IMG/VR virus record: IMGVR_UViG_3300020187_000265
Location: 1 to 21,084 of that record
Source: a virus
Length of the DNA stretch: 21,084 bases
Direction: 5' to 3' (one strand)
Every line of letters starts with the position of its first letter. The first letter of the stretch is position 1. The notes beneath the pieces are model-generated. The model had not been told where the DNA came from and did not search any database. It saw nothing but the letters and a program-made list of their open reading frames with translations. The position numbers and the translations under genes are program-made. Positions 2,956 to 20,877 of the stretch are shown piece by piece.

Positions 2956-3158
2956 TTCTACCTACGGCGCCAGAAAGATATGACGAGATTGCCTTCAGCA
3001 AAATGAATTTGTTGATCGAGCAGGCGGATGGCCTTAACCACAAGAAGAATCAAGACATTGAAGTTGGTGCAGCTCGTCTAATTCTAAGAGCGCCAAACGG
3101 AGCTCGCTACAGCGTCACAGTCGATAACTCGGGGAACCTGGGAGCAACAGCACTATGA
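2952..3158 (+). CDS. Hypothetical phage protein, 68 aa
   Basis: It starts with GTG at 2952, overlapping the upstream TGA by four bases. Its own stop overlaps the next ATG (ATGA). The N-terminal half is helical (YDEIAFSKMNLLIEQADG). The C-terminal half looks like two or three beta strands (ARLILRAPNGARYSVTVDNS). It is small and acidic to neutral, with no membrane helix or metal motif. Tight coupling on both sides supports a real gene. I see no recognisable function beyond virion-operon context. Confidence 0.65.
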   Translation: MILPTAPERYDEIAFSKMNLLIEQADGLNHKKNQDIEVGAARLILRAPNGARYSVTVDNSGNLGATAL

Positions 3159-3562
3159 ATGCAAAAGAAGCATTAGCGGCGCCTAGCACGCTAGAAGCGA
3201 TGCTGCCGTATCGGGTGATGCTCGAACGTGCGCTTGAGTTTGCCGGCGGTACGCACTTGTTTGAAGATATCGTCGAGGCTGTTAACGAGGGTCGTATGCA
3301 CTTTTGGCCCGCAGAAAAAAGCTGCGTTGTAACCGAGGTGGTTTGCTATCCGAGAGCTAGAGCCATTCATATCTTTTTGGCCGCAGGCGATCTGATGGAA
3401 ATAAAAGGTATGGACTCAACATTTCAAGAATTTGGTCGGGCTTTAGATGCCAAATTTATCACACTGTCTGGTCGCAGAGGCTGGACTAAAGCGCTTGATG
3501 ACATCGGTTACAAGCTGAGCCATGTGAGCATGTACAAGGAGATTGAAGATGTCAGGAAGTAA
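3155..3562 (+). CDS. GNAT-like phage structural-operon protein, 135 aa
   Basis: The protein combines a helical N-terminus with a mixed alpha/beta core (HFWPAEKSCVVTEVVCYP, then AIHIFLAAGDL, then FITLSGRRGWTKALDDIGYK). The pattern of a strand pair, a helix and a GRRGW-ALDDIGYK ending is typical of the N-acetyltransferase-like proteins found before internal virion genes in T7-like phages. An actual acetyl-CoA pyrophosphate loop is not obvious, so catalysis is doubtful and a structural or internal-virion role is more likely. The start overlaps the previous stop as ATGA. The end overlaps the next gene by 14 bases. Confidence 0.6.
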   Translation: MNAKEALAAPSTLEAMLPYRVMLERALEFAGGTHLFEDIVEAVNEGRMHFWPAEKSCVVTEVVCYPRARAIHIFLAAGDLMEIKGMDSTFQEFGRALDAKFITLSGRRGWTKALDDIGYKLSHVSMYKEIEDVRK

Positions 3563-4421
3563 AGGTGGAGGCGGCGGCAAAGGCGGATCGGTCACTCCTG
3601 TCGGCGGAGGATACGGTGGCGGAAATCAATACGGGACAGGGTATTACAACCCACAGCCTCGATTGCCTGCGACGCCCTATAACTCGATGATGGACGTTTA
3701 CGGATCTTCCCAAAATGTCATGCAGCCAATGTCAGGTTATTACAATCAATATCCTGCGGGCGGTAGCAATTATCAGCCTTATCAGCCACAGCCGGTTTAT
3801 GAACCGACACCGATGCCTGATCCACCTCCAGCACCAAACCCTGGCACCGGACCAAGCAATGGGCAAGGTGGATATTCTGGGAATCCCACTCAGCCGAATA
3901 TGGATTTCAACAATTACAATATAAATGATATCGGCAATTTGATCACCCGATCTATTTTCGGCGACTACACCGGCATCCCGACGGCAGGGAATTATCAGCA
4001 AACTTATCAGCAGCCGGCTCAAGAAGCGCAGCAGCCTGTGTATAACAATTTTCAAGCACCTGTGTATGAGAATCAGTCAGTTTATGCTCAGCCTATGGAT
4101 CAAGGGTCAAATTCTTTTGCTGCTGATCCAGTGTTTTATCAAAACAATAACGCGCAATACGCAGCCCCAGCGACTGCGACTGGAAATTACAATATGACTA
4201 CAAATACGCAACAGCTTTCAGAAGCACCGCAACTTGCAGCGCCTGTGCAGGGTAGTTATCAGCAGCCTAGACCCGACGGCTACCCAATGTCTCAGCCGAC
4301 GCAGCAAGTGCAAATGCCGATCCTTGACGCGGCTTCTAATCCAGGGTTTGGCGGGTACGATCAAAACGCAAGGGCAACGATGTATGCGCCACCTATGTTT
4401 AATTTTGGAGTATATTACTAA
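3549..4421 (+). CDS. Pro/Gln/Tyr/Asn-rich disordered phage protein, 290 aa
   Basis: The chosen start is the ATG at 3549 because AAGGAG (3536-3541) lies 7 bases upstream. An in-frame TTG at 3543 would be too close. The N-terminus is a Gly/Lys run (SGSKGGGGGKGGS). The rest is low-complexity sequence dominated by P, Q, Y, N, G and A with repeated short units (YQQP, YNQYP, QPVY). No hydrophobic core, membrane helix or catalytic motif is visible, so it is probably intrinsically disordered. The gene order suggests a virion protein, possibly one released with DNA or acting as an assembly scaffold. That is inference. The stop overlaps the next ATG by one base. Confidence 0.7.
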   Translation: MSGSKGGGGGKGGSVTPVGGGYGGGNQYGTGYYNPQPRLPATPYNSMMDVYGSSQNVMQPMSGYYNQYPAGGSNYQPYQPQPVYEPTPMPDPPPAPNPGTGPSNGQGGYSGNPTQPNMDFNNYNINDIGNLITRSIFGDYTGIPTAGNYQQTYQQPAQEAQQPVYNNFQAPVYENQSVYAQPMDQGSNSFAADPVFYQNNNAQYAAPATATGNYNMTTNTQQLSEAPQLAAPVQGSYQQPRPDGYPMSQPTQQVQMPILDAASNPGFGGYDQNARATMYAPPMFNFGVYY

Positions 4422-6811
4422 TGAGCTTTGGTAAATCTAAGCAGGATAGCGGTCAGTCAATGGACCCGCAAATTAAGGGTGCGTTGATGAATGTATTCCA
4501 GACAGGTCAAGCCCTGTCTCGAACGCCCTACAATCCTTACCAGAACGCGACTGTGGCGCCGATGAGTCCTTTCCAGCAGCAGGGAATGCAGGCGACGCTG
4601 GACGCTTCAAGGGCAGGAATCGGCCAAGAACAGATGGACCGGGCTATTGCGCGAGCACAAACCGAAGCAAAATTTGCCCCTTCAAATGTCGCAACAAAAG
4701 GTATTACTCAGATTGGGGATCTAACAGGCAACGTTTCAAGCGGTTCGGCTTCTAATGCTTTAACAGCGGCTGCTAATAATGTTTCAGGAGTCACTTACAA
4801 GCCAACGATGGCGACGTACCTTCCAAACGCAGGGACGGGGGTAAATGCCGGGACAGCGGTAGGGCTTGCGGGAACCGAAAATTACAATGATTCAAGGTAC
4901 AAAAATAACGTTAATGTTGGCGGAGTTAATACGGGCATTACCTTCAATGACGCAAAAGCCTCGACAGTCACGAACCCTGGCCAGATTTCAGCGGGCACTG
5001 CAACAGGGCAGGATGTTGCAAGTCTTGGCCTGCTAGGCCCAAGCGCGACAGCAGCGAATGCAGCCCAAATAGTTGACGTTGGTACGGGTAGAGTAAAAAA
5101 CAGAGAGGTTTCTGCTAACCAAATTTCTGGTCCATTGAGCGCGGTTAGTGTGGGGAAGATTACGCCAGGAACTGTAAGCGCTTCTGATGTGACAGCAGGC
5201 ACAATTGATCCGCTTAGTTTTCAGGACAGTAACGTCAACGACTATATGAACCAGTATCAAACTGGGGTGATCGACAGTGCGCTCGGTGACATCGAACGCG
5301 CTCGAAAAATGCAGCAGAATCAGAATGCGTCTAGCGCAATTTCAGCAGGCGCATTTGGCGGAGACAGGGCAGCGATTGTCGAGGCCGAAACGAACAGAGC
5401 GGCATTAGAGCAATCAGCAAAAACTGCCTCGGCGCTAAGATCGCAAGGCTTCGAATCGGCTGCGCGACTGGCCGAGGCAGACCTGGCTAGAAGGATGGAT
5501 GCTGCGTCTGCTAACCAGCAGACCGGATTGCAAGGTCAATTGGCGAACCAGCAAAGCGGCTTGGCAGCTAGCCAAGCAAACGCACAGCTTGGTCTGCAAG
5601 GTCAAACAGAAGCGGCAAGACTTGGTTTGCAGGCAGGATTGTCTGCACAAGACGCCAACATGCAGGCTGCTCTCGCGAACCAGCAAGCGGGCCTTACCGC
5701 TAGCCAGGCTAATTCTTCACTCGGCGTAGATGCCGGTAAAGCTAACCAGGATGCCGCTCTTCGACGCGCAATGGCGAACCAACAGGCTTCAGTTGGCGAT
5801 GCGGATCGTGCGCTGCGTGGCGGCCAGATTAACCAGGATGCTAGCTTGCAGGCGCGCCAGCAGGATTTGCAGCGGCTAATGTCCAATCAAGATAACGCGC
5901 GTGCATTTGCTCTAGCGAATCAAGCGCAGGGCATGTCCGCGCAACAAAGTAATGCGCAAAACAATTTGTCGCGACAGCAATTGAATCAAGATGCCGGCTT
6001 GCGCGCAGCGCTTGCTAACCAGCAGGCTCAATTGACGGCTGGTCAAGCGGCCAATCAGGGGCGTTTGCAGTCTCAATCGTTAGGTGTAGATGCTGGTCGG
6101 AGCAATCAAGCCGCAAACATACAGCAGTTGCAACTGGCCAATGCTGCTCAACAGGCAAACCGGGACAGATCGCTGCAAGCATCTCTTGCGAATCAGCAAA
6201 CTAAATTAGACCAACAACGGCTGGCTAATCAGGGCATTCTTCAAACCCAATTGATCGCTGCGCAGCAAAGTAGGGCAAACCAGGCGGATAACACGGCGGT
6301 CAATCAGCTTCGCCTGCGAGGGCAAGAGTCAAATCAACAAGCAGCCTTGCAGGCTTCCTTGGCAAACCAAGCGAACCAAAGAGCTTTTGCATTTCAGAAT
6401 CAGGATGCGGGACTCCAGGCGGCTCTCGCTAATCAGCAGCTTGGCTTCAATCAAGATCAGTCTGAGTACGATCGTAGATTTAGAAACGTCGAGAACAACA
6501 TGCAAGCGCAGTTGGCCAATCAAAGTGCTGGTTTGCAGGGTCAGCAGCAACGATTGGCAGGCGCGGGTATGTCTAGTCAGTTAGCTCAAGATCAGCGCGC
6601 CATGACCTTTGCAGATGCGCAGCAGATGCAGGGTGTGGGTAATCAGCAGCAGCAGTTTGCTCAGCAGATCATGGACGATCAATATCGCCGCTTCCAAGAG
6701 CAGCAGAACTATCCTTTCAGAATGTTTGATGTTCTGCGTAGCGGCGCCGGCATGTTGCCCAACCCGACTATGAGCAACTCAAGCGGTCGAAGTACTAATT
6801 TAGGAATCTAA
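4421..6811 (+). CDS. Giant Gln/Asn/Ala-repeat virion protein, 796 aa
   Basis: Residues 1-290 form a Gly/Thr/Val/Ala-rich region with imperfect short repeats (AGTA, GTVSA, SAGTATG), likely beta. Around residues 300-325 there is a QNASSAISAGAFGGDRAAIV motif followed by EAETNRA. I recognise this motif from structural proteins of many tailed phages. From about 360 to 740 the protein is a long array of imperfect repeats built on LANQQ-GL-A/QA-AN (for example residues near 368, 405 and 505). It is strongly helical and contains almost no aromatic residues. This looks like a filamentous or coiled-coil virion component such as an internal or ejection protein. The ATG is coupled to the preceding stop (TAATG). 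Confidence 0.75.
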   Translation: MSFGKSKQDSGQSMDPQIKGALMNVFQTGQALSRTPYNPYQNATVAPMSPFQQQGMQATLDASRAGIGQEQMDRAIARAQTEAKFAPSNVATKGITQIGDLTGNVSSGSASNALTAAANNVSGVTYKPTMATYLPNAGTGVNAGTAVGLAGTENYNDSRYKNNVNVGGVNTGITFNDAKASTVTNPGQISAGTATGQDVASLGLLGPSATAANAAQIVDVGTGRVKNREVSANQISGPLSAVSVGKITPGTVSASDVTAGTIDPLSFQDSNVNDYMNQYQTGVIDSALGDIERARKMQQNQNASSAISAGAFGGDRAAIVEAETNRAALEQSAKTASALRSQGFESAARLAEADLARRMDAASANQQTGLQGQLANQQSGLAASQANAQLGLQGQTEAARLGLQAGLSAQDANMQAALANQQAGLTASQANSSLGVDAGKANQDAALRRAMANQQASVGDADRALRGGQINQDASLQARQQDLQRLMSNQDNARAFALANQAQGMSAQQSNAQNNLSRQQLNQDAGLRAALANQQAQLTAGQAANQGRLQSQSLGVDAGRSNQAANIQQLQLANAAQQANRDRSLQASLANQQTKLDQQRLANQGILQTQLIAAQQSRANQADNTAVNQLRLRGQESNQQAALQASLANQANQRAFAFQNQDAGLQAALANQQLGFNQDQSEYDRRFRNVENNMQAQLANQSAGLQGQQQRLAGAGMSSQLAQDQRAMTFADAQQMQGVGNQQQQFAQQIMDDQYRRFQEQQNYPFRMFDVLRSGAGMLPNPTMSNSSGRSTNLGI

Positions 6812-10400: not shown

Positions 10401-10425
10401 CCTATACATGTTTTTACGCGTTCAA

Positions 10426-10456
10426 TTACACCAAATTGCACCAATAATTACACCAG
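10426..10456 (+). repeat. Right arm-type integrase-site repeats
   Basis: Three direct copies are present: TTACACCAA (10426-10434), TTGCACCAA (10436-10444) and TTACACCAG (10448-10456). The last one runs into the integrase ribosome site (AGGAG, 10455-10459). Integrase bound here could therefore limit its own expression. Confidence 0.65.
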
Positions 10457-10464
10457 GAGCGGGT

Positions 10465-11445
10465 ATGCAGGGGACTTATCAGAAGCGTGGAGATCGTTGG
10501 CGGGCCATAATTATGGTGCATGGTCGGCGCCGCTCAGCAACATTCGATACTAAGCGCCAGGCCCAAGCTTGGGTGGCTGAGTTGGTCACAACGGACACCG
10601 GGGTCGCGATAGCAACTGGCACGCTGCGCGAGCTCTGCGAGCGATACAAGAGCGAGGTGAGCGAAACAAAACGGGGCGAACACTGGGAGGTCATTCGATT
10701 AGATATGTATGCGCGCGAGTATGCAGATCTGTTTGATCGGAAGCTGACAACGATTCAACGAGAAGATCTTGAGCGCCTGATTAAAGATCGTCTAAAGCAA
10801 GTGAAACCCAGTACGGTCAATCGAGATCTTAATCTCATTAGCAATGTGTTCAAGTATGGCCGGCGCTGGCGAATGATGAGCCACAATCCGATGACCGACA
10901 TTAAACGACCTACGGATCCGCCACCAAGGGATCGTCGAGTGTCTGAAGCCGAGGAGGCCATGCTTTTACAGGCAATGTCTTATTCGGACGAAATGCCGAT
11001 ATCTAGCCAGCGCCAAAAAGTCGCGATAGCATTTTTGCTTGCTCTTGAGACTGCCATGCGACAAGGCGAGATAACATTGACAAAATGGTCAGACGTGCAT
11101 ATCGATGAGCGATATATTTTCTTGCCGCATACGATCACGAAGACGGCTGTATCGCGTAATGTGCCGCTGTCAGCCCGGGCTATAGAGTTAATAGGAAGGC
11201 TAGACCATGACAAAGAAACGATGCTGGGCGTCTCTAAGGGTGTTGTAAGTACAATGTTTCGCGCGGCTGTCAGAAACTGCGGGATAGATAACTTGACGTT
11301 TCATGATGCGCGGCATGAGGCAACGACTAGGCTAGCAGGGAAGCTGCAAGTCCTAGACCTTGCCCGCGTCACGGGACATAGAGACATCAAGCAGCTAATG
11401 ACCTACTACAACAAAGATGCGCGAGAACTTGCCGAACTGCTCTAA
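10465..11445 (+). CDS. int: Tyrosine-recombinase integrase, 326 aa
   Basis: The enzyme catalyses site-specific recombination between attP and the host attB. All active-site residues are visible: R199 (AMRQGE), H280 and R283 (FHDARH), H305 (GHRDIKQ) and nucleophile Y314 (LMTYYN). The spacing matches lambda Int. The N-terminus (YQKRGDRWRAIIMVHGRRRS) is a short arm-binding-type strand domain, followed by a SAM-like core-binding domain near residues 60-150. I chose the ATG at 10465 because AGGAG lies five bases upstream. The open frame from 10408 would translate the arm repeats. It lies directly beside attP. Its stop overlaps the convergent Xis-like gene by four bases. Confidence 0.93.
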   Translation: MQGTYQKRGDRWRAIIMVHGRRRSATFDTKRQAQAWVAELVTTDTGVAIATGTLRELCERYKSEVSETKRGEHWEVIRLDMYAREYADLFDRKLTTIQREDLERLIKDRLKQVKPSTVNRDLNLISNVFKYGRRWRMMSHNPMTDIKRPTDPPPRDRRVSEAEEAMLLQAMSYSDEMPISSQRQKVAIAFLLALETAMRQGEITLTKWSDVHIDERYIFLPHTITKTAVSRNVPLSARAIELIGRLDHDKETMLGVSKGVVSTMFRAAVRNCGIDNLTFHDARHEATTRLAGKLQVLDLARVTGHRDIKQLMTYYNKDARELAELL

Positions 11446-11773: not shown

Positions 11774-12074
11774 TTTCAACTCTCACAATATCTCTTTCAT
11801 CGCTGAACGTATTAAATTTTCGTGCGCTTCTAAATTCGTCTTCTTCCTGATGATCAGGGCTTTCTAACTCCATCGCGATCAGCAGCTCTGCGTAGTGGAT
11901 GATCTTCCTGAGATCGTCCAGGTTGCCGGTGTGCTTTCGTTTCCACCGACAGGCGTACTTAACGATGCTGCTCTCCGCAGCGCCCAAGCCATTTTTTTGG
12001 CAGAACCGAATCGGTTCGATTGCAAAACCTTTGTAATGATTACCACCAACCTGCTTCTTGAAGGGCTCGCTCAT
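11766..12074 (-). CDS. DUF3310-family phage protein, 102 aa
   Basis: The core VGGNHYKGFAIEPIRFCQKN followed by GLGAAESSIVKYACRWKRKH and DLRKIIHYAELLI is the DUF3310 signature, also found in the T7 gene 1.7 nucleotide kinase. Here the domain stands almost alone with a charged C-terminal tail, so kinase activity is uncertain. I chose the methionine of MSEPFKKQ at 12074, preceded by AGGA. The 12140 start would overlap the upstream gene far more, and an alternative at 12095 is possible. It overlaps the 75-aa gene upstream by 35 bases and is coupled to the 38-aa membrane gene downstream. Confidence 0.8.
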   Translation of the reverse strand: MSEPFKKQVGGNHYKGFAIEPIRFCQKNGLGAAESSIVKYACRWKRKHTGNLDDLRKIIHYAELLIAMELESPDHQEEDEFRSARKFNTFSDERDIVRVENV

Positions 12075-12267
12075 ATTGTTTTTCCTCATGCTCATCAAAA
12101 TTTGATTTGCGCCACTTGGCTCTGACCCATCTGTCCGCATGCCTGCAACTTAAATACTCAAGATCGATGCTTTTCGACCGCTGACAAACCCGGCAAAGGG
12201 TTGTCCTTTTTCTGATCCAGCCGCCGCAACCAGCGCACTGCTTGTAAAAATCTGACGAATACTTCAT
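12040..12267 (-). CDS. Small zinc-ribbon-like protein, 75 aa
   Basis: Two CxxC knuckles (C11-AG-C14 and C25-RV-C28) in YKQCAGCGGWIRKRTTLCRV suggest a treble-clef or zinc ribbon in the first half. A basic and aromatic C-terminal region follows (CRHADRWVRAKWRKSNF). Proteins of this kind often bind nucleic acid or partner proteins. The ATG overlaps the upstream TGA (ATGA) and supports translational coupling. I cannot name a family. The early-operon position suggests a role in replication or host takeover, as inference only. Confidence 0.68.
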   Translation of the reverse strand: MKYSSDFYKQCAGCGGWIRKRTTLCRVCQRSKSIDLEYLSCRHADRWVRAKWRKSNFDEHEEKQYERALQEAGWW

Positions 12268-12449
12268 GGACTCATAGCCTCATTAAAATGCTCGCAACTG
12301 TTTTTCTCGTTCTTGAATGACGCCGGTACGTCTGAATCAAACACCTCGCACCAGGTAAAAATTAAGTGGCTGCAATAGCCGCAGCTTTGTCGAGGCCACT
12401 TAAATACAAGCTTCGTGGTGATTGGCTTAGGCTTGATCGTTCGCCGCAT
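12264..12449 (-). CDS. Cys-rich small phage protein, 61 aa
   Basis: The ATG at 12449 is preferred over an adjacent TTG at 12452. The protein contains CGYCSH (a CxxC knuckle), a later Cys in FTWCEVF, and a terminal CEHF. Together these are four possible metal ligands in CxxC...C...C(xH) order, preceded by a basic N-terminus (RRTIKPKPITTK). This pattern recurs in small phage proteins with an apparent metal-binding fold of unknown role. The start lies within the 3' end of the 45-aa gene and its stop overlaps the next ATG. Confidence 0.65.
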   Translation of the reverse strand: MRRTIKPKPITTKLVFKWPRQSCGYCSHLIFTWCEVFDSDVPASFKNEKNSCEHFNEAMSP

Positions 12450-12564
12450 CAATCAACTCTTCTGCTATTGCGAGAAGTCGCGACAGCGTTTCGGCGATCT
12501 CTTCTTGATTCGCCAGGAAACGATCCATATCGTCGCTTTCTATCTGCACAAATATTTTGCTCAC
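12427..12564 (-). CDS. Small acidic helical protein, 45 aa
   Basis: A GTG at 12564 overlaps the nuclease stop as GTGA. It is preceded by a perfect GGAGG (12576-12572 on the minus strand) with seven bases of spacing, the best ribosome site in this operon. The product starts MSKIFVQIESDDMDRFLANQ and continues with EEIAETLSRLLAIAEELIDA. It is one strand followed by an amphipathic helix, with no Cys. Size and layout suggest a small modulator or partner of a neighbouring protein. Codons 27-29 (LSR) contain one of the GTCGCGACAGC motifs. Confidence 0.7.
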   Translation of the reverse strand: MSKIFVQIESDDMDRFLANQEEIAETLSRLLAIAEELIDAANDQA

Positions 12565-13607
12565 CCTATTACCTCCGCTTGAAAACTTTCTTTCCAATGA
12601 TCGATGTCTGGATCGCCGATTGCGTTCACGTCCCGGGCTCGGCTGATTTCTTTCGACGAGTAGCCGCCCCAGCCGTTGACAAACTCATGGCCGGTTAATT
12701 TGTTTTTATAGCTGACGTGCTCTTCTGTGCCGTCTAACACTTCAGCCCAGGGCTCTAACAACTCAGGAATGAACAGGTGCTTGTCACACGCCAGGCGCTG
12801 ATCCTCTACACCAATATCTTTCTTATGCTTCGCGCATGACCACCTCGAATCACCATCAATCTCTGCTGTCGCGAAAGCACAGGTGCGGCAGCTCAGTGCC
12901 GGCGTTTGGTAGCCGTGGCATAGAAAGCTGTGGTCGCAGAATTTGCACTTGTAGAATGAGGGATCGGTGCTGATGCCTTCAGGCGGTCGATCGCTTGTGA
13001 TGATGTGCTCAGCCTTGCGTATCAATGCCTCCGCAGCGGGCTTGTCGTACTCAACGCGCTCGTAGTACAGCGCATCGTTGTTCTTGTTCACCGCCTGGTA
13101 AAATGCCCAGGGCAGCTCCATAAGGTGCATATAAACTTGCATCTGCGCATAGTGCTCGGGCTTGCTTTTAAGGACGCCTTTCTTTTCGACATCCTCAAAA
13201 CTTTTCGCAGCGTGCGTCTTTTGCTCGGAAACGTGCGGTACTTGCGGGGCTTCACGGAGCCCCATGACCACGCCGTCCAGGCTGCCGCCGAAGTGACCAC
13301 CGACTGCCTCGACCCTAAACTGCTGCTTGGTATCAGGATCGACATCCCAGACTGTTACGCCGGCCTGAGTGAGCAGATGATTAAACCAATCTTCCTCTCT
13401 GGCGCCGCGTGCAAAAAGTCGTAAAATTCTGGCCTTGTGCGTGACGATGGTGCCCCACCTAAAGCTGAACCACAGCTCTCTCTTACACTCGCGGCCAATG
13501 ATGCTGCCGCCAAGATGAGCCCGGCCACCATCGGTGGCCTGACCCTTCTCACCCGCTCGCTCGACGGCGTTGAGAGTAGTGCTTGCTGGTTCTGGTAAAG
13601 CAACCAT
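12561..13607 (-). CDS. Cas4/RecB-like PD-(D/E)XK nuclease with Fe-S cysteines, 348 aa
   Basis: The RecB/Cas4-type nuclease core is visible: D111 in GGSLDGV, E128-x-K130 in SEQKTHA, and Q155 in HYAQMQVYM. One upstream Cys (C41, GRECKRELWF) and a C221-x2-C224-x5-C230 group reproduce the four-cysteine 4Fe-4S layout of Cas4 and AddB. A second group (C240-x2-C243, C258, C274) follows and is unusual. These enzymes resect DNA ends. With the SSB and Sak4-like genes directly upstream, an exonuclease feeding single-strand annealing is likely. The ATG at 13607 follows GGGAG; a TTG 12 bases earlier is less likely. The length exceeds Cas4 (about 200 aa) because of the C-terminal region. Confidence 0.85.
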   Translation of the reverse strand: MVALPEPASTTLNAVERAGEKGQATDGGRAHLGGSIIGRECKRELWFSFRWGTIVTHKARILRLFARGAREEDWFNHLLTQAGVTVWDVDPDTKQQFRVEAVGGHFGGSLDGVVMGLREAPQVPHVSEQKTHAAKSFEDVEKKGVLKSKPEHYAQMQVYMHLMELPWAFYQAVNKNNDALYYERVEYDKPAAEALIRKAEHIITSDRPPEGISTDPSFYKCKFCDHSFLCHGYQTPALSCRTCAFATAEIDGDSRWSCAKHKKDIGVEDQRLACDKHLFIPELLEPWAEVLDGTEEHVSYKNKLTGHEFVNGWGGYSSKEISRARDVNAIGDPDIDHWKESFQAEVIG

Positions 13608-13609
13608 GC

Positions 13610-14080
13610 TTACTCCCAAGGTTTCTTGCCGGCCGCGGCAGGAGCCGCAGAGGGTGCGGCAGCAGGAGTCGCGACAGCCTGCAATTGATCGGCTGGCGAG
13701 TACGCTTTGATCTGATTACTAGGACCGTATTCGCCGCGGCCAGGCTGTATTGCAACCTTAATCATGATCGCTTTATGGTGCAGCTCTTCGCTGTCTTGAA
13801 TAGACTTTTTGCCGAGGGCGCGGCAAATCGAACTCAACTCTTTTTGCGCAATCTCGACAGCTTTTTCGTTTGGATTGTCTAGGTTCAAATTGGTCTTCAC
13901 CCATCGACCCGCGTGCGCGCCTTCAAGCACTTCGAACTTCAGCATCAAATAGCTGCCGGTTCCTGCGTTGGTCTTTCGCATTTCCGAATCGATTATCACG
14001 GCCTTGTACAAAGCCTCTGGGATCGGCTCAAACCTTTGCTCTTCGACAAAATCTTCCGCATTAAAACTTAATGACGCCAT
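13610..14080 (-). CDS. ssb: DUF669-family single-stranded-DNA-binding protein, 156 aa
   Basis: The sequence FEPIPEALYKAVIIDSEMRK, then GTGSYLMLKFEVLEGAHAGR, then TNLNLDNPNEKAVEIAQKEL fits the DUF669 family, which is OB-fold SSB-like and found beside phage annealing proteins. The C-terminal third is an Ala/Pro linker ending in KKPWE, an acidic-aromatic tip of the kind SSBs use to bind partners. It coats single strands and probably stimulates the Sak4-like protein, whose gene ends two bases upstream. AAGGAG overlapping that stop provides the ribosome site. One GTCGCGACAGC motif (13668-13678) lies within the Ala-rich linker codons. Confidence 0.85.
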   Translation of the reverse strand: MASLSFNAEDFVEEQRFEPIPEALYKAVIIDSEMRKTNAGTGSYLMLKFEVLEGAHAGRWVKTNLNLDNPNEKAVEIAQKELSSICRALGKKSIQDSEELHHKAIMIKVAIQPGRGEYGPSNQIKAYSPADQLQAVATPAAAPSAAPAAAGKKPWE

Positions 14081-14082
14081 TT

Positions 14083-14841
14083 CTATTTCTCCTTGCTTGT
14101 TGCTGTAGTGATTGCTTGCTCGAAGGCTGGCCAGGTGAGGTCGATCTCATCAGGCAAGCCATATCGATTCTTTGCGATGTAACCAGGCGTCTCTGTGGTG
14201 CAAAGCACGCGCTCGCCAGTGCTAATACCGCGCACCCTGGTCTGGTTAAATCCTTTGTCTTCTTTCTTCGTGATGATCTTGTGCTTCGCGAATAGCACGC
14301 TATCGACTGACTCTTGAATCAGGCCGCTGGCTTTTGCGTGCAGCTTGATCTCGTAGCGGTCGTAGCTCTCAGTGTCCGGGCTGTTGTAAGCGCGAATATG
14401 AGTGTGCGCGAGCAAAATCAGCGACATATTCTTACGATGTCGCAGCGAATTAATCGCAGCTAAAAACTCGCGCCAATAGTCCAACGCGAACACGTAGCCC
14501 TTGCCGTACCCAAATTCCTCAATCGATTTCTTACCTTCCACCAGGCAAACCTTCTTCCAGATCAGCGGCTCTAAATGGTCCAGGCTGTCAAGCACTAGCG
14601 TGCCGTAATCATGCTCATGCTCTATCAGCGCGGTGATGGCCTCGATGAGCTCGTCGTATGTTTTGATGAGCGGGAATGCAGACAGCTCTAACGCACCTTC
14701 GCCGGCTTCCGTTTGCAGGAACACGGGGTTAGGCGCGGCAGCCGCGAACGTGGTTTTACCCACGCCGGCAGAACCAAATACGATCATCGATGGTGGCTTG
14801 AGGCCCGTAGTCTTTTTGATTGCAGATAGGTCGATAGCCAT
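14083..14841 (-). CDS. sak4: Sak4-like RecA-fold annealing ATPase, 252 aa
   Basis: A Walker A motif GSAGVGKT (residues 23-30) and a Walker B-like YGTLVLDSLDH (about 78-88) place it in the AAA_24/Sak4 group, remote RecA relatives that promote single-strand annealing. LILLAHTHIR (near 145) contains the expected motif 3. Sak4 of phage HK620 is known to work with its cognate SSB, and here a DUF669 SSB gene follows directly. With the Cas4-like nuclease downstream, this makes a complete resect-coat-anneal set for phage recombination. The ATG overlaps the upstream stop by one base. The length is normal for the family. Confidence 0.87.
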   Translation of the reverse strand: MAIDLSAIKKTTGLKPPSMIVFGSAGVGKTTFAAAAPNPVFLQTEAGEGALELSAFPLIKTYDELIEAITALIEHEHDYGTLVLDSLDHLEPLIWKKVCLVEGKKSIEEFGYGKGYVFALDYWREFLAAINSLRHRKNMSLILLAHTHIRAYNSPDTESYDRYEIKLHAKASGLIQESVDSVLFAKHKIITKKEDKGFNQTRVRGISTGERVLCTTETPGYIAKNRYGLPDEIDLTWPAFEQAITTATSKEK

Positions 14842-15269
14842 TAGATCTCACCCCCAGTGATTGAAATGTAGGGCTTAGCAGGGGAGTGCGAGAATGCTCT
14901 CGCGATCTTGCGATAAATCGTTGGCTCGTTGTTGCGAAGATATTTAAGGCGCGCAACGTCAATCGTTTGCGTCAGCTTTAGCGGGAGCATGTTCGCCGGC
15001 ACGCTATCGCGCACTGCTTGCAAGGCAATGTCATCAAGCTTGTAGTTGTTCTTGGTGGTTAGCTTGATCTTTCGACCGAATGTGGTTTCGGTTGTCTGCG
15101 AACCTTCAGCGCGCTGAGCAAGATGAGGGATCATCTGCTCTTCAATCTCAATGCGACGAGCTTTACAATTGTCCTCCAGCGTTTTCTGCTGAAGCCACTG
15201 CTCGGCTAGTACATCGAGGTTGGGTTCGTTATGGGAGGGGGTTACTGCTTCGTTTCTTTGTGCGTCCAT
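14841..15269 (-). CDS. Conserved phage protein of unknown function beside sak4, 142 aa
   Basis: The 142-residue protein is highly charged. It has an N-terminal helix (LDVLAEQWLQQKTLEDNCKA), a middle with short strands (TTETTFGRKIKLTTKNNYKL), and a C-terminal half rich in Leu and Lys (ARLKYLRNNEPTIYRKIARA). I recognise it as the type of protein often encoded just before Sak4-like genes, with no assigned activity. It is the promoter-proximal gene of the leftward operon. The ATG at 15269 has GAGAGA upstream. A role with the recombination proteins is inferred from position. Confidence 0.7.
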   Translation of the reverse strand: MDAQRNEAVTPSHNEPNLDVLAEQWLQQKTLEDNCKARRIEIEEQMIPHLAQRAEGSQTTETTFGRKIKLTTKNNYKLDDIALQAVRDSVPANMLPLKLTQTIDVARLKYLRNNEPTIYRKIARAFSHSPAKPYISITGGEI

Positions 15270-15302
15270 CGTTCATCTCTCTTTTCGTATTGAAAAAAGA
15301 GC

Positions 15303-15346
15303 GTAACCGATTTATGTAATCGTTGTCTACCTTTCGGTTACATAAA
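15303..15346. promoter_or_regulatory. Operator-like inverted repeat before the leftward operon
   Basis: TTTATGTAATCG (15311-15322) and CGGTTACATAAA (15335-15346) form a 12-bp inverted repeat with one G-T pair. A further GTAACCGA stands at 15303-15310. The GGTTACA unit is also the half-site of the dyads between repressor and cro. On the minus strand a TAGACA (5 of 6 to a -35 box) lies in the loop, but no clear -10 box follows. The site is probably an operator controlling the recombination operon. Confidence 0.6.
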
Positions 15347-15348
15347 CT

Positions 15349-15810
15349 TTAGGCAGATATTTTAGTGTTCACATAGACGCCCAATACAGGTGGTTTACTG
15401 TAAAGGTTTTTTGCCTTTGCAACGCGCACCAGTTCGCCCGCAAATTGTTCGGGGATTGCGTGATTGTAAATTGCGTTTCCGTGCGCCCAAATCATGTGCG
15501 GTCTGCGTAGTTCGAGGACGCAACTGGCTGCGCCGTCCTGGCGCAAAAGCGACAAAAAATCATTGCCTTTCATTGTCAGGGCGCGCAGGGATTTGCTTTG
15601 CCAAAAATCGCCGCAAAAAATCTTCTGTCTCTGGCCATCAATTTGAGCGCAGTCACAAATGTAGGGGCAGCAAGTGCCGACGTGCCAGATTTCAAAATCA
15701 GAAGTTGTGCAGCAATGGTAGTTGTCTTCTAAGTATATTCTGTCGATTGTATTTCGTACATACTGCGAAGCTTCTTTTGATACGTGAAGGTGATCGTCTA
15801 ACTCTCTCAT
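15349..15810 (-). CDS. Cys-rich protein co-transcribed with the repressor, 153 aa
   Basis: The ATG overlaps the repressor stop (TTATGA), with AGGAG just upstream, so it is made with the repressor in lysogens. The N-terminal 70 residues hold a dense Cys/His set: H32, C33, C34, H43, C47, C48, C52, C54 and C66. This looks like a metal-binding or disulfide-rich domain. The second half contains ALTMKGNDFLSLLRQDGAAS and a short C-terminal VLGVYVNTKISA strand. I cannot name a family. Genes cistronic with a CI-type repressor are often lysogenic-conversion or superinfection-exclusion functions, which makes this the best candidate for such a role. That is inference. Confidence 0.7.
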   Translation of the reverse strand: MRELDDHLHVSKEASQYVRNTIDRIYLEDNYHCCTTSDFEIWHVGTCCPYICDCAQIDGQRQKIFCGDFWQSKSLRALTMKGNDFLSLLRQDGAASCVLELRRPHMIWAHGNAIYNHAIPEQFAGELVRVAKAKNLYSKPPVLGVYVNTKISA

Positions 15811-16187
15811 AATTCTCCTGCTTTTGACTTCCTTGCCTTTATCAATAAATCCTTAACCTTTAACAGCGCCTCAAACTCTTCGTCTGTCAAAAGCTCAACG
15901 TCCAGCATCTTTTCGCTGCGACCTGATCCCGATTTAGATTTCACGCTCGCAAACATTTCTTCAACCAAAAATGATGGCTTTACGTTGAAAAGCTTACACA
16001 ACGCCCCGATCACTTCTTTGCTTGGAAGCCGCGTCGATCCTGACGGCTTTTCAGACTCCCACTTTGCTATCGCGTTATGACTGACTTTGACGCCGTACTG
16101 CTCAAGGTCTATAGCCATTTGCCGCAAGCTTAGTCCTCTCGCAAGACGCAACTCGGCTATCCGTCGATTGAATGGAACTCGTGACAT
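15807..16187 (-). CDS. CI-like XRE-family repressor, 126 aa
   Basis: Residues 7-75 form an XRE helix-turn-helix domain: RRIAELRLARGLSLRQMAID, then VSHNAIAKWES, then EVIGALCKLFNVKPSFLVEE. The C-terminal 50 residues are a charged helix that probably dimerises. There is no LexA/CI S24 peptidase domain (no Ser-Lys dyad), so induction cannot use RecA-triggered self-cleavage. The gene is read leftward from a promoter overlapping a perfect operator dyad at 16224-16240. It is followed at once by the Cys-rich gene. It should repress the rightward cro/prim-pol operon and probably the leftward recombination operon. A GAGGA lies seven bases before the ATG. Confidence 0.85.
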   Translation of the reverse strand: MSRVPFNRRIAELRLARGLSLRQMAIDLEQYGVKVSHNAIAKWESEKPSGSTRLPSKEVIGALCKLFNVKPSFLVEEMFASVKSKSGSGRSEKMLDVELLTDEEFEALLKVKDLLIKARKSKAGEL

Positions 16188-16220
16188 ACCCTTATCCTCT
16201 ATGGTTATTAATGCCTCCTA

Positions 16221-16249
16221 AATGTAAACCCAAGGTTTACTGATTACAA
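16221..16249 (-). promoter_or_regulatory. Repressor promoter with operator dyad
   Basis: On the minus strand TTGTAA (16249-16244) and TACATT (16226-16221) are spaced by 17 bases, giving a plausible -35/-10 pair. Between and overlapping them lies GTAAACCCAAGGTTTAC (16224-16240), a perfect 7-bp dyad with a 3-base centre. It is a likely repressor or Cro operator, allowing autoregulation. Confidence 0.62.
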
Positions 16250-16277
16250 CCCCTGCTTCAAATGTTGCATCAATAAA

Positions 16278-16308
16278 GGTTTACGCTTGTAACCTTTTCG
16301 GTTACATT
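16278..16308 (+). promoter_or_regulatory. Rightward early promoter with operator dyads
   Basis: TTTACG (16280-16285) and TACATT (16303-16308) are separated by 17 bases and would start transcription about 20 bases before the cro ATG. TGTAACC (16288-16294) and GGTTACA (16300-16306) form a perfect 7-bp inverted repeat covering the promoter. GGTTTAC (16278-16284) is a further half-site. A protein bound here would block the promoter. Confidence 0.62.
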
Positions 16309-16333
16309 TGATTTTTTTGTGAGAGCGATACCG

Positions 16334-16531
16334 ATGACACCAGACACCTTTTGGTCCGAAATAAATGTAAGTGAAATGGCCGCACAGCTCGGCCTCAGTA
16401 GGAATGCCGTTTACAAGTGGAAGCGCAGCGAAAAGGGCATACCCGCTGAGCGTGCCGCTGAGATATCATCAATACGAAACATAAAAAAATCTGCAATTCG
16501 CCCTGATTTGTGGGCCGAAATTGATGATTGA
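16334..16531 (+). CDS. Cro-like helix-turn-helix protein, 65 aa
   Basis: The short protein contains a helix-turn-helix near residues 10-35 (VSEMAAQLGLSRNAVYKWKR). A GIPAERAAEISSI segment follows, typical of Cro/YdaS-type regulators that bind the same operators as the repressor. It is transcribed divergently from the repressor and is the first gene of the rightward operon. The ATG at 16334 has GAGAG at the right distance; the upstream GTG at 16319 has no ribosome site. The stop overlaps the prim-pol ATG (ATGATTGA). Confidence 0.8.
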   Translation: MTPDTFWSEINVSEMAAQLGLSRNAVYKWKRSEKGIPAERAAEISSIRNIKKSAIRPDLWAEIDD

Positions 16532-18428
16532 GGCGCCAGCAACGCCTGCTGAAAAGGCGCGCGAGCTCTTTGAGCAGGGATTAACGATCATCCCAGCTCA
16601 CCCTCATCAAAAGATTCCTCTTATTCCTTGGCAAAAATACCAGAGTAAAGAAGTCACGGTCGATGAATTTGAATACTTCACAAGCAGCGCCAGGTTTGCC
16701 AACTGCAACTTCGCCCATGTAACCGGAAAAGAGATCGTTGTGATCGACGCTGACTCAGCAGAAGCGGAAGCCTGGGTCCGAGAGAACTTGCCTTATACGC
16801 CAAGAACAGTCGCGACAGCACGCGGTCGGCACTTCTATTATCAGGCCAATCCAAATTTTGATATCAGCAACTCGACCGATCCAGAAGCCAAGATAGATGT
16901 GCGCGGTAAGGGCGGGATTGTCATTGCTGCCGGCAGTGTTCACGCTAGCGGCGCTATCTACCAAGAGACGATCGATAAGGGCGTAGATGGCGACTGGCGA
17001 GAGCTGCCAATGCTGAGCGCTGCTGACATCGACAAGATTAGCGCCGAGAACAAGCCCAAGCCTCTGGTCGAAGCCAGCGAGGGCGGCTGGCACGATGACA
17101 TGATTCGGTACGTGGGCTCTCAGGTCCAGGCCGGGCTGACCGACGAGGATATATTGCGCACTGCAACGGGATGGACGCAGCCAGGCTACACGCATGAGCA
17201 AACCTTCGCAGAGTTTAAGGTTGCGATTAAGGGCGCCCGGGACAAAGGCTGGGACCAATCACCAGAAGTCGCGACAGCCGAGGAGATTGCTCAGATCACT
17301 GATGCTCTGGCGCCGATTGCCTTGGACATCGGCAGCATCGCAGCACTGCCAAAGCGAGAGTGGGTTTATGGCCGGCACTATATACGCAAATTTTTGTCCG
17401 TCACGGTCGCTGCCGGCGGAACCGGAAAGACGGCTCTAACATTGACAGAAGCGATGGCTATGGCGTCTGGAATACCGCTTTTGGGGATAGAAACGCCCAA
17501 GCGGAAGGTATGGGTCTGGAATTTGGAAGACCCTTTAGATGAGCTAAAAAGACGCTTGGCAGGCATTGCAGTGCATCACGGCGTAGAGGCGCATGAGTAC
17601 GCCGGCAACCTGTTCGTCAACTCAGGTCGCGACAGCTCGGTCGTCATTGCTGAGAACCGCGGCGGTGAACCAATCATTTTACCCGCTGCGGACATCATTC
17701 TTAACTACATCAAGCAGCACGCAATCGATGTCATCATCGTTGATCCTTTCGTCTCAAGTCATAAGCTAAACGAGAACGACAACGGCGCAATGGACCTGGT
17801 GGTCAAAACCTGGGGCAAAATCGCAGAGCAGGGCAACTGCGCCGTCGAGCTCGTGCATCACGTCAGGAAAGCCCAGAACGGCCAGTCAGCAAGCTATGGC
17901 GACGCCAGAGGCGCATCCGCGCTGACGGATGCCGCCAGGCACGTCAGACGATTGATGAGTATGACTTATGAAGAGGCGCGGAATGGCGGCGTTGATGAGG
18001 CTGACCGATGGCGGTACAGCCGCGAGGGCGACAGCAAAGACAACCTGGCACCGCCTAGTCGCGACAGCTCTTGGCGGCAGATGATCAGCGTGCAGCTCGA
18101 CAACGGCGATAACGTGGGCGTGCCTGAGCCCTGGGAATGGCCTGATCCTTTCGCTGAGATCACCGTGGCGGATCTCAATGCGGTGCAGACGGCCATCGGC
18201 AAGGGCGAGTGGCGCGAGGACGTGCGGTCCAAGAATTGGGCGGGAATCGCGATAGCAGACGTGCTTGGATTAGACGCTGCCCTCGCGGAAAATAAGAGCA
18301 AGATTAAACAACTGCTCGCGGTCTGGATCCAGAATCGTGAGCTCAAGGTCGTTGAGCGGGCCGACGCAAGCAGACATATGCGAAAGCATATAGAAGTCGG
18401 GGACGCTGCAAAATGGATGATCGAGTAA
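16524..18428 (+). CDS. Prim-pol / RepA-like helicase fusion, 634 aa
   Basis: The N-terminal domain (residues 1-200) is a bifunctional primase-polymerase: D75-A-D77 (VVIDADS), RGRHFYYQ near 97, and IDVRGKGGIVIAAGSVH near 125. The C-terminal half is a RecA-fold helicase of the RepA/AAA_25 type, with Walker A GGTGKT (298-303), Walker B IIVDPF (D407) and ELVHHVRK near 440. It would prime and unwind DNA for phage replication. The ATG overlaps the cro stop. The iteron array lies about 460 bases downstream, as expected for an initiator or helicase acting at a nearby origin. Four GTCGCGACAGC motifs lie inside it, in two different frames. Confidence 0.9.
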   Translation: MIEAPATPAEKARELFEQGLTIIPAHPHQKIPLIPWQKYQSKEVTVDEFEYFTSSARFANCNFAHVTGKEIVVIDADSAEAEAWVRENLPYTPRTVATARGRHFYYQANPNFDISNSTDPEAKIDVRGKGGIVIAAGSVHASGAIYQETIDKGVDGDWRELPMLSAADIDKISAENKPKPLVEASEGGWHDDMIRYVGSQVQAGLTDEDILRTATGWTQPGYTHEQTFAEFKVAIKGARDKGWDQSPEVATAEEIAQITDALAPIALDIGSIAALPKREWVYGRHYIRKFLSVTVAAGGTGKTALTLTEAMAMASGIPLLGIETPKRKVWVWNLEDPLDELKRRLAGIAVHHGVEAHEYAGNLFVNSGRDSSVVIAENRGGEPIILPAADIILNYIKQHAIDVIIVDPFVSSHKLNENDNGAMDLVVKTWGKIAEQGNCAVELVHHVRKAQNGQSASYGDARGASALTDAARHVRRLMSMTYEEARNGGVDEADRWRYSREGDSKDNLAPPSRDSSWRQMISVQLDNGDNVGVPEPWEWPDPFAEITVADLNAVQTAIGKGEWREDVRSKNWAGIAIADVLGLDAALAENKSKIKQLLAVWIQNRELKVVERADASRHMRKHIEVGDAAKWMIE

Positions 18429-18883
18429 CGTGTTACCTGTGTGGGCAAGCAAAGCTCGCCGCTGATTTTTATGAGAGCGAGTTAGCAACCAAACGATGCC
18501 GCGAATGCTTGCGCCTTATTCGACAGCGCAGCGTTAACGAAGACCACACAAAATACCTCCGCCGACTCACGGCACAATTAAAAAGCCAACGACTAAAAAG
18601 CAACTTCACCTGGGAAATCAAACCGCAGGATGTCATCGATCTATGGGAGTCCCAAAATGGGAGGTGCGCAATCTCCGGTTTAAACATGACCCATCATCGA
18701 ACGAATGAGGGCGGCAAATCCGCCTTCAACGCCTCGATCGATCGCATCAATAACCTCGAAGGGTACGTCAAAAACAACATTCAATTGGTCTGTAATCAGA
18801 CAAATACGATGCGCCACACGCTCAACGTGGGCGAATTTTGGTGGTGGATTAAGACGATTTATCAGCACCAAAACAAAGAATAG
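18413..18883 (+). CDS. HNH endonuclease, 156 aa
   Basis: A CYLCGQAK...CREC zinc-binding N-terminus (CxxC, CxxC) is followed by an HNH-type core. The core includes CAISGLNMTHH and then NASIDRINNLEGYVKNNIQL, which contains the ID-R-N and GYVKNN signature, followed by VCNQTNTMR. These proteins nick or cut DNA and in phages serve in homing, packaging or recombination. The ATG lies in the last codons of the prim-pol gene. Free-standing HNH genes in this position can be homing invaders, but coupling with the upstream gene suggests long residence. The target is unknown. Confidence 0.82.
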   Translation: MDDRVTCYLCGQAKLAADFYESELATKRCRECLRLIRQRSVNEDHTKYLRRLTAQLKSQRLKSNFTWEIKPQDVIDLWESQNGRCAISGLNMTHHRTNEGGKSAFNASIDRINNLEGYVKNNIQLVCNQTNTMRHTLNVGEFWWWIKTIYQHQNKE

Positions 18884-18892
18884 CTGTGAGGG

Positions 18893-19070
18893 CTGCGACA
18901 GTGCGACAGTTGTGCGACAGTTGGCCAAAATAACTGTCGCAGTCAATGAATCCGGGGCTTTGCGGGGAGTTTGCGACAGTTGCGACAGTTTGTTTTCTGC
19001 GACAGTTCATTTGCAAACGATTAACAGCAACGATATCAATGACTTAGAGAATCTGCGACAGTGCGACAGT
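18893..19070 (+). repeat. Iteron array TGCGACAGT, likely replication origin
   Basis: TGCGACAGT occurs as eight direct copies starting at 18894, 18902, 18913, 18972, 18981, 18998, 19054 and 19062, and once inverted at 18933-18941. Two overlapping pairs share the same 20 bases (18893-18912 and 19053-19072). The inverted copy pairs with its neighbour in a perfect 10-bp dyad (18913-18922 with 18932-18941). The array is non-coding, lies just after the prim-pol/helicase and HNH genes, and leads into an AT-rich stretch. Confidence 0.8.
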
Positions 19071-19075
19071 TGCCC

Positions 19076-19113
19076 CTATATATAGATATATAACTGGCGC
19101 ACTGTCGCGCCAG
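19076..19113. other. AT-rich tract and hairpin beside the iterons (candidate unwinding region)
   Basis: Bases 19077-19093 are an A/T tract (TATATATAGATATATAA), a typical easily melted element. It is followed by CTGGCGC (19094-19100), the loop ACTGTC, and GCGCCAG (19107-19113), a perfect 7-bp stem. The loop and the adjoining stem carry an inverted GCGACAGT. No strong T run follows, so it is not a classic terminator. The stretch 18884-19208 holds no credible gene. Confidence 0.6.
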
Positions 19114-19134
19114 CTTTATCTACATATATTCTGA

Positions 19135-19150
19135 GCGGCTGAACAGCCGC
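19135..19150. other. Short GC hairpin after the origin region
   Basis: GCGGCT and AGCCGC pair over six bases around GAAC. It lies between the A/T tract and the acidic-protein gene and may end transcripts or structure the leader. No T run follows. Confidence 0.35.
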
Positions 19151-19208
19151 CGCATTGATCATCTTGCAAGAAGTAGCGCATCAAGTTTTAGCGTTGCAAT
19201 ATTCGGTC

Positions 19209-19409
19209 ATGGCCACATTGCATTTACAGATTGATGACTTCGAACCCGGCATGACAATTCGGGTGCAGCTAGACAATGACGAGTACGTTATCGAGCTGGA
19301 TGATGACGGGCCCGATGAGCCTGATGAGGCGCCCGAGGCGGAAGACAAACCTAGAGTCGCGACAGCAGACGCGCAGCGGTTTGCGTTCGGGGGCAAGCGT
19401 GGGGGCTAG
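19209..19409 (+). CDS. Small acidic protein, 66 aa
   Basis: The ATG at 19209 begins MATLHLQIDDFEPGMTIRVQ, two or three short beta strands followed by a very acidic Asp/Glu/Pro tract (about residues 30-48). It ends in a Gly/Lys/Arg tail. No ribosome site is obvious, and a TTG at 19155 would add 18 residues, so the start is uncertain. Strongly acidic small phage proteins can mimic DNA and inhibit host nucleases, but I see no specific match. It overlaps the next gene's GTG by eleven bases. It contains a GTCGCGACAGC motif read as Val-Ala-Thr-Ala. Confidence 0.5.
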   Translation: MATLHLQIDDFEPGMTIRVQLDNDEYVIELDDDGPDEPDEAPEAEDKPRVATADAQRFAFGGKRGG

Positions 19410-19743
19410 CAAGCTTGAGGAACTGATGTCGCGACAGCTTGAGGAGGCCGGCATTGAGTTTGAGCGAGAGCAGATGCTTATCCCTGGGCGGAAGTTTAGA
19501 TTCGACTTTGTGCTGCCGCAGGCTTCCCTGATCGTTGAATGCGAGGGCGGTACGTGGAGCGGTGGTCGGCATACCAGTGGGATCGGCTTTCGCAACGATT
19601 GCGTGAAGTACAACCTGGCGGTCGAGCATGGCTATGTCGTACTTCGATATACGAGCGACCTCATCAAGAACGGATCGGCCATTGAATCGATTGCGAGGGT
19701 TCATGAGCGTTATGCCGTTCAGACGCCCTTAGAAGCGATCTGA
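19399..19743 (+). CDS. DUF559/Vsr-like PD-(D/E)XK endonuclease, 114 aa
   Basis: The core FRFDFVLP (D36), then LIVECEGG (E47, E49) and a basic GRHTSGIGFRNDCVKYN segment, matches the small DUF559/Vsr-type nucleases common in phage replication regions. KLEELMSRQLEEAGIEFERE at the start is typical of the family and supports the GTG at 19399 rather than the upstream out-of-family extension. An ATG at 19426 is also possible. It probably cleaves branched or nicked DNA during replication or packaging. The start overlaps the acidic-protein gene by eleven bases. Confidence 0.78.
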   Translation: MGASKLEELMSRQLEEAGIEFEREQMLIPGRKFRFDFVLPQASLIVECEGGTWSGGRHTSGIGFRNDCVKYNLAVEHGYVVLRYTSDLIKNGSAIESIARVHERYAVQTPLEAI

Positions 19744-19752
19744 GGCACGATC

Positions 19753-19950
19753 ATGACCTCGTCCAAGCCAGGACAAAGGGGTGCGGAACTGTCGCCTGCA
19801 AAGGGTGATTTAAGATTTCATGTGGAACGTTCTGGTTCACAGAAGATACACAAAAGATTATTCACAGATGACTACATCGATTTCGACTATGAGAACGATG
19901 TCAGGGATTTATTGCGAGACTTAGGAGTGAGCGAATATGGCAGGCACTAA
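19753..19950 (+). CDS. Hypothetical phage protein, 65 aa
   Basis: A GAGG seven bases upstream supports the ATG at 19753. The N-terminal half is basic and polar (SSKPGQRGAELSPAKGDLRF). The C-terminal half is acidic (DDYIDFDYENDVRDLLRDLG). It is probably a small soluble protein, and no family is recognised. It lies directly before terS and its stop overlaps the terS start by 14 bases. A packaging or late-regulation role is possible but only from position. Confidence 0.55.
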   Translation: MTSSKPGQRGAELSPAKGDLRFHVERSGSQKIHKRLFTDDYIDFDYENDVRDLLRDLGVSEYGRH

Positions 19951-20350
19951 GCTAATGACCATGAAGGTTAAGCAGCTTGAGGATATCGGCGAAGACGTAC
20001 TGTTCGACAAGCTAGCGTCAGGATCTAGCGTCAACAGTCTAATCAAAGAATGCGGCATCGGTAAGCGCGTGTTCTACAAGTGGATGCGTGGCGTTGAGGG
20101 TAGGGAGGAGCGTTACTATGCTGCGCGCAAGGAGTGGGCGAACTACCTGGCTGAAGAGACGTTATCGATTGCCGATAACATTGCAGACGCTGGCGATGCA
20201 CAGGTTGCTAAGGTTCGTATTGACACGCGCAAATGGCTGGCTGCTCAAGCAAACCCGGACAACTGGGCTGCGCGAAAGGATCCGCTGGTGCAAATCAACA
20301 TCCAAGATCAGCATTTAAAAGCGCTGCGAGACCTCGTAAGCGAGCAGTGA
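19937..20350 (+). CDS. terS: Terminase small subunit, 137 aa
   Basis: The N-terminal helix-turn-helix (LFDKLASGSSVNSLIKECGI, then RVFYKWMRGVEG) is followed by YYAARKEWANYLAEETLSIA and KVRIDTRKWLAAQANPDNWA. The RIDTRKWLAAQANP motif is typical of small terminase subunits of the Sf6-like group. The protein recognises the packaging site and feeds DNA to the large subunit. AGGAG upstream supports the ATG at 19937. The large subunit is not in the window, and the next gene on this strand is not visible. Confidence 0.87.
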   Translation: MAGTKLMTMKVKQLEDIGEDVLFDKLASGSSVNSLIKECGIGKRVFYKWMRGVEGREERYYAARKEWANYLAEETLSIADNIADAGDAQVAKVRIDTRKWLAAQANPDNWAARKDPLVQINIQDQHLKALRDLVSEQ

Positions 20351-20671
20351 TACACGCGCAGAGACGCACCGCACGCGGCGGCCAACGCGCGCAGGACCAA
20401 GATTTGCGGGGCATTGAGCCCTAAACGCACGTAAAATCTAGGCTGTAGCGTGTAACGTCCGTGTACGAGTGTTACATGCAATATGCAACCCTATATAAAT
20501 CAATGACTTACGTGCGCCCGGTGGTCAGGGATGGTGCTTGGTTTTCCTGGGCAGCTCGATCCCGGCGCCAGGGATTTGCGGGCGCGCGGACCCCCCCCGG
20601 CGAGCGGCAGCGGGGGTGGGGGATAGGGGTTAGACTCGAACGCACCAAATTTTTTTTTGTAAATTTCAGGC
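20351..20671. other. Non-coding GC-rich region after terS
   Basis: No credible gene is visible; the long open frame here is compositional and overlaps a real - strand gene. Visible elements are an inverted TGTAAC/GTTACA pair (20451-20456 with 20471-20476), a -10-like TATATAAAT (20492-20500), a C8 run (20591-20598) pairing with GGGGGTGGGGG (20612-20622), and a T9 run (20650-20658). A packaging site is possible next to terS, without direct proof. Confidence 0.55.
20451..20499 (+). promoter_or_regulatory. Candidate promoter with an operator-like inverted repeat
   Basis: TGTAAC (20451-20456) and GTTACA (20471-20476) form a 6-bp inverted repeat that shares the GTTACA core of the repressor half-sites. 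TATAAA (20494-20499) is a fair -10 box, but no good -35 box is present at the right distance. It would read rightward. Confidence 0.35.
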
Positions 20672-20733: not shown

Positions 20734-20877
20734 TTATTTCTTCTTCTTAGCGGTTTTCTTGGCTGTCGCGAACGCCTTATTCGTTGGGGCGCCTGCGGCG
20801 CCGGGCTTCCGCATCTTCTCTTTCGATCCCTTGGCAATGCGCTTCCGCTTTGCGTGAATGTTGCTGTACAGGCCCAT
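20734..20877 (-). CDS. Small basic conserved phage protein, 47 aa
   Basis: The protein starts MGLYSNIHAKRKRIAKGSKE, then KMRKPGAAGAPTNKAF, and ends in a Lys-rich tail. I recognise MGLY-NIHAKRKRI-GS-EKMRKPG-GAPT as a short basic protein found in many tailed phages near the packaging or portal genes, of unknown function. It may bind nucleic acid or nucleocapsid components. GAGGA lies seven bases before the ATG. It runs against terS on the opposite strand and ends at a strong terminator. One TCGCGACAGC lies in its codons. The region upstream of its start is GC-rich. Confidence 0.8.
   Translation of the reverse strand: MGLYSNIHAKRKRIAKGSKEKMRKPGAAGAPTNKAFATAKKTAKKKK

Follow-up and report, generated by a model that had tools for sequence, protein, structure and literature searches.

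The linear virus record IMGVR_UViG_3300020187_000265 (21,084 bases, analysed at full length and hereafter the window) carries the gene set of a temperate tailed phage, and the 11-mer GTCGCGACAGC recurs along it. Its genes include an integrase; a group of recombination genes for a Cas4-type exonuclease, a DUF669 single-strand-binding (SSB)-like protein and a Sak4-like annealing protein (12561..14841, - strand); a helix-turn-helix (HTH) repressor (15807-16187), beside which lie GTTTAC-type inverted repeats that look like its operators (about 16190-16330); and a Prim-Pol (PF09250) fused to a RepA-type AAA_25 helicase (PF13481) with a C-terminal winged-helix-like domain (16521..18428, +), the proposed reader of the 11-mer. 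Downstream follow an HNH/endonuclease VII-like gene (18413..18883, +), a DUF559 endonuclease-like gene containing two copies of the word (19276..19743, +) and a terminase small subunit (TerS) of Sf6 type (19937..20350, +). About ten iterons with a GCGACAG core lie between the HNH and DUF559 genes and form a putative origin (18894..19110, not assigned to a strand), adjoined by the AT-rich TATATATAGATATATAA, a possible unwinding element (19077..19093, +). No INPHARED phage gave a megablast match to the window, and no credible match to RNA families was found.

The window contains nine exact copies of GTCGCGACAGC, all on the + strand, where dinucleotide shuffles predict 0.03 (maximum 1). No other 11-mer of the window comes close, the next independent one occurring four times. 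The initial annotation had reported eight exact + copies within 7 kb, all of which we recovered together with a ninth at 5968. Copies occupy all three reading frames and genes of either strand. In the codon-preserving shuffle of annotated genes that the annotation had suggested as a check, 2000 runs gave a mean of 1.26 copies (maximum 4) against the nine observed; this mean includes one unshuffled copy, at 12477, which lies outside the listed genes, and within the annotated genes about 0.26 copies remained after shuffling compared with eight observed. Chance and codon usage were rejected as the origin of the word on the basis of these shuffles, its conservation in relatives and the invariant codons described below.

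Nearly all copies are intragenic: those in the prim-pol gene and in a late gene (4421-6811) are sense, and the DUF669 copy and those around the resolvase of relatives are antisense. The late-gene copy (5968..5978, +), which has a homologous site in 7 of 12 covering contigs, corrects the earlier statement that the exact form is missing from late genes. Two GTCGCGATAGC variants lie in the integrase gene, at 10603..10613 (+, polarity kept in 5 contigs) and 11020..11030 (+, found in 10 contigs, two of which have the C form). Between integrase and exonuclease, an exact copy at 12477..12487 (+, initially placed at 12478) is present in 10/14 covering contigs, and the copy antisense in the DUF669 gene (13668..13678, +) is present in 14/14. 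The prim-pol/helicase gene holds four + copies: 16809..16819 (15/16 contigs), 17268..17278 (replaced by GTTGCGACAGC in part of the clade), 17626..17636 (17/18 contigs, retained at 60% protein identity too) and 18058..18068 (16/16 contigs). In the DUF559 gene, the + copy at 19356..19366 (13/14 contigs) reads E-S-R-Q-Q rather than the Val-Ala-Thr-Ala first assigned to it, and that at 19428..19438 (11/14 contigs) is the final + copy ahead of a switch in polarity. On the - strand, a one-mismatch copy, TTCGCGACAGC, follows TerS at 20762..20772, where exact - copies begin at TerS+336 in relatives, and a GTCGCGATAGC variant in the gene for a virion structural (stabilisation) protein (1661..1671, 10 contigs) marks the far end of the - arm.

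The phage family is marine and uncultivated. All 20 IMG/VR contigs with prim-pol segments 82-100% identical to the window carry the 11-mer, in one orientation around prim-pol. A scan of viral contigs for two copies 391-421 bases apart returned 27 contigs, every one from this family, including a second clade in which the word is retained even though the Prim-Pol is only 59-60% identical (DUF669 42-48%, TerL 86%). Since the second clade was located via two of its copies, the conservation of those two is partly ascertained; its other copies, at the DUF669/exonuclease boundary, in Sak4 and near TerL, were not selected for. At 13668, 16809, 17626, 18058 and 19356 the word is exact in 92-100% of relatives, compared with a mean of 22-29% for other local 11-mers, and the 17268 copy is kept no better than the surrounding sequence. 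Across 60% protein identity, prim-pol has 303 invariant residue columns, 24 of them also codon-invariant, and only at AGT CGC GAC AGC, the 18058 copy, are at least three consecutive codons invariant, the flanking synonymous codons varying freely. The motif ends abruptly on both sides, apart from a purine preference upstream. Position 8 has C in 22 clusters and T in 8, and with T the symmetry is lost; the palindrome, which the initial annotation had pointed out as TCGCGA, is thus not the essential part of the motif. A mobile or inserted repeat was also rejected, as aligned prim-pol genes show in-frame point substitutions without indels. The word is strongly selected at the DNA level, and the earlier claims of such selection, of independence from frame and transcription, and of polar character are supported.

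Polarity was assessed over 66 contigs, with the other half of the genome represented by contigs added through TerL and stabilisation-protein searches. The 242 exact copies of GTCGCGAYAGC form 31 context clusters with zero polarity exceptions. Copies on the + strand run from 1.3 kb past the stabilisation protein gene, via the tail and replication genes, up to DUF559; those on the - strand run from 336 bases past TerS, via TerL and tail, into the stabilisation protein gene. When homologous positions were merged by hand, at least 16 sites were + and none - on one arm, and none + and six - on the other (p=1.3e-5). Copies with one mismatch conform to this pattern too, save for palindrome overlaps of + copies. 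The claim that orientation follows the genome holds for the exact copies of the window, on one arm, and fails across the family, where orientation is reversed on the other arm.

Polarity thus tracks genome arms, not transcription, and both arms point to one zone near the iterons and TerS, close to which the copies are densest. Placed with the help of relatives, the first switch interval (switch 1, 19439..20660) spans the end of DUF559, a small open reading frame (ORF) and TerS, and the second (switch 2, 1672..4330) reaches from the stabilisation protein gene as far as the genes that follow it. We estimate the family genome size at near 37 kb, from G010 (34.1 kb) plus a gap seen in G009, so the switch intervals would lie about half a genome apart, although chance, at odds of about one in ten, could also account for that spacing. 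A direction that reverses twice at such spacing fits an arm-directed process, whether replication, break repair or translocation. We also observed a parS-like GTTTCACGTGGAAC in the small ORF before TerS, within the switch 1 interval of several relatives (L042, G006, G007, G015 and L044); the window has it with one letter different at about 19816-19828. Taken as a polar, family-specific, DNA-level signal, the word is well supported.

Switch 1 adjoins the iterons and AT-rich DNA, and the initial annotation had linked the word to the iterons through GCGACAG, which the two share in the window, where they are adjacent. This link was not upheld. Iteron cores differ among close relatives and across clades (GCGACAG, GCTCCAG, GCGTCAG, TCTCCAG), whereas the 11-mer is constant, so the shared heptamer looks coincidental and we rejected the word as an iteron-related site. 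The switching of iteron cores (L011, L044, L171, L177, L178, L184) gives the appearance of an origin specificity that is diversifying. GC skew was weak and contradictory as a test of the origin: comparing window positions 3155-15810 with the right arm of G005/G010, a weak skew at fourfold sites, independent of gene strand, gives G>C on the + strand of one arm and C>G on the other, and it reverses near switch 2 and at about 15.8 kb as well. A candidate DnaA box at 19858 was set aside, being confined to three near-identical contigs.

Outside the family the word was not found to be enriched. Scans of 369 gammaproteobacterial, 289 alphaproteobacterial and 121 Rhodobacteraceae-family genomes (779 scans, a few genomes being shared between sets) gave no enrichment over a reversed-pattern control, in line with the phage-specific signal proposed at the outset, the phage host not having been identified. 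Genome contig scans recovered no prophage carrying this prim-pol, and TerL relatives there were only 57-64% identical. Viral pair scans with gaps of 140-170 and 270-300 yielded no unrelated phage with the motif, and a 10-mer pair scan (gap 220-250) gave six contigs, none enriched; each pair scan covers only part of the possible copy spacings. Two contigs with TerL 85% identical, L053 and L067, lack the motif, and no prim-pol is seen in their covered stretch. A tandem 9-base repeat, CCGTCGTAA, occurs 3' of TerL in these two contigs (L053 4794-4881, L067 1066-1144), whose recombination module is rearranged. More distant relatives, searched de novo for polar words of the same type, showed none equally strong. 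The palindrome GAGCTC is about 3-6-fold over-represented, without clear polarity, in L062, L066, L091-L093, L097, L102 and L110-L116 (23 seen and 6 expected in L111). A literature search for the 11-mer returned unrelated papers only, with no description of such a phage sign.

A phage protein is the favoured reader, since two divergent clades share the word unchanged and it was not seen elsewhere. We propose that GTCGCGAYAGC is a polar protein-recognition site along both arms, aimed at the zone beside the iteron origin and TerS, and that its putative reader is most likely a phage-encoded replication protein. Specifically, the complementary-strand word GCTGTCGCGAC could be a template start or loading site for the Prim-Pol/RepA-type helicase fusion. 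If replication begins near the iterons, each fork would have GCTGTCGCGAC on its lagging-strand template, and these sites would set where new strands start or restart. We infer that the arms are replication arms, and hypothesise that the Prim-Pol is the reader. The latter is favoured by the lack of the motif in L053 and L067, in whose covered stretch no prim-pol is seen. The Prim-Pol resembles pRN1 ORF904 and the helicase part RSF1010 RepA; domain-level matches alone were used here, as the AlphaFold2 model of the full protein is of low confidence (pLDDT 59.5). The arrangement recalls the sites of archaeo-eukaryotic primase (AEP) enzymes, in which a strand-specific word likewise stands beside a Prim-Pol/RepA-type module, and an AEP Prim-Pol is encoded in the same replicon as the phage word. 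The NrS-1 Prim-Pol recognises 5'-TTTGGTTA-3' on the template (PMC8718748), and RSF1010 RepB' recognises ssiA/ssiB, one per strand (PMC4434180). Unlike these single or short words, the phage word is long and dispersed in 10-15 copies.

Several points weigh against a Prim-Pol start or loading site. The 11-mer exceeds the cited primase sites in length, and a total of 10-15 is low for Okazaki priming. Just past the iterons there are still two + copies (19356 and 19428), and the weak fourfold-site skew has the sign expected for an origin at switch 2, not at the iterons. Between the motif-bearing clades the Prim-Pol (60%) is not the most conserved protein (TerL 86%, Sak4 71%), and L058 and L066, with Prim-Pol 52-55% identical, lack the exact motif. 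On balance, a phage-encoded directional replication or repair signal, most likely serving as this start or loading site, is the explanation we prefer, tentatively and at somewhat less than even probability.

Chi and the FtsK-orienting polar sequences (KOPS) are polar, genome-wide words of bacterial chromosomes read by host enzymes, and each suggests a rival explanation. The main one is a Chi-like recombination signal, at which an exonuclease/helicase would switch from degradation to recombination; the reader, for which host RecBCD/AddAB and phage enzymes (the Cas4-type exonuclease, for instance) are candidates, would enter through a double-strand break at pac or the origin and would run into the copies of either arm from their 3' side. 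The geometry suits this, both arms being aimed at one zone with TerS, and the phage encodes an exonuclease, an SSB-like protein and Sak4. E. coli Chi is short, over-represented and polar along replication arms (PMC8022716), and the phage word is similarly over-represented and polar in phage genomes. However, it differs from Chi in sequence and length and was seen in one phage family only; a host Chi should abound in host chromosomes, which the 779 scans did not show (the host being unassigned), no unrelated phage with the word emerged from three pair scans, and the candidate Chi motifs of proteobacteria are octamers resembling GCTGGTGG. We regard a Chi-like role as possible, if rather unlikely.

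A KOPS-like signal, guiding a DNA translocase towards switch 1 in segregation, dimer resolution or packaging, appears improbable. As with KOPS around dif and other leading-strand polar octamers, arms of opposite polarity meet at one zone and the words are densest nearby; a serine resolvase is encoded near TerL in several relatives, and the sign of the weak GC skew suits a terminus at switch 1. However, KOPS serve bacterial chromosomes and a host translocase, and would abound in host genomes, which the scans did not show, whereas the phage word is a family-specific 11-mer for which no translocase or dif is identified (no search aimed at dif was made), an FtsK-like gene being absent among the annotated phage genes.

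Strand-specific nicking sites occur in T5 and phiKMV, and the word could be cut by the HNH or DUF559 endonuclease, since the sites are polar and dispersed and both endonuclease-like genes lie in the same cluster; we know of no precedent for the arm-wise reversal, however, and rate nicking slightly lower still. Asymmetric repressor sites for prophage silencing, a function entertained in the initial annotation, are very unlikely: although the phage is temperate, with an integrase and an HTH repressor, and the stoperators of cluster A mycobacteriophages, 13-mers, are also dispersed, asymmetric and present in many copies, those lie outside genes, in promoters or short intergenic spaces, and follow transcription in orientation (PMC9283540), whereas the phage copies, nearly all intragenic, both sense and antisense, do neither, and the GTTTAC-type repeats look like the repressor's own operators.

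We conclude that the feature is genuine and under strong selection; our literature search turned up no earlier description of it. Whether this phage family possesses a genome-arm polarity code of its own, in which an unvarying 11-bp word with a phage-protein reader indicates strand and direction on either arm, independent of the host and of the phage's own iterons, we judge evenly balanced; to our knowledge, such a phage-encoded code would be the first of its kind. The word gives the search for its reader protein something concrete to work from, and allows replication or repair arms of uncultivated phages to be mapped from sequence alone. If true, the persistence of a phage's own word against codon drift, while proteins diverged by 40%, would imply a need for directional landmarks in small phage replicons too.

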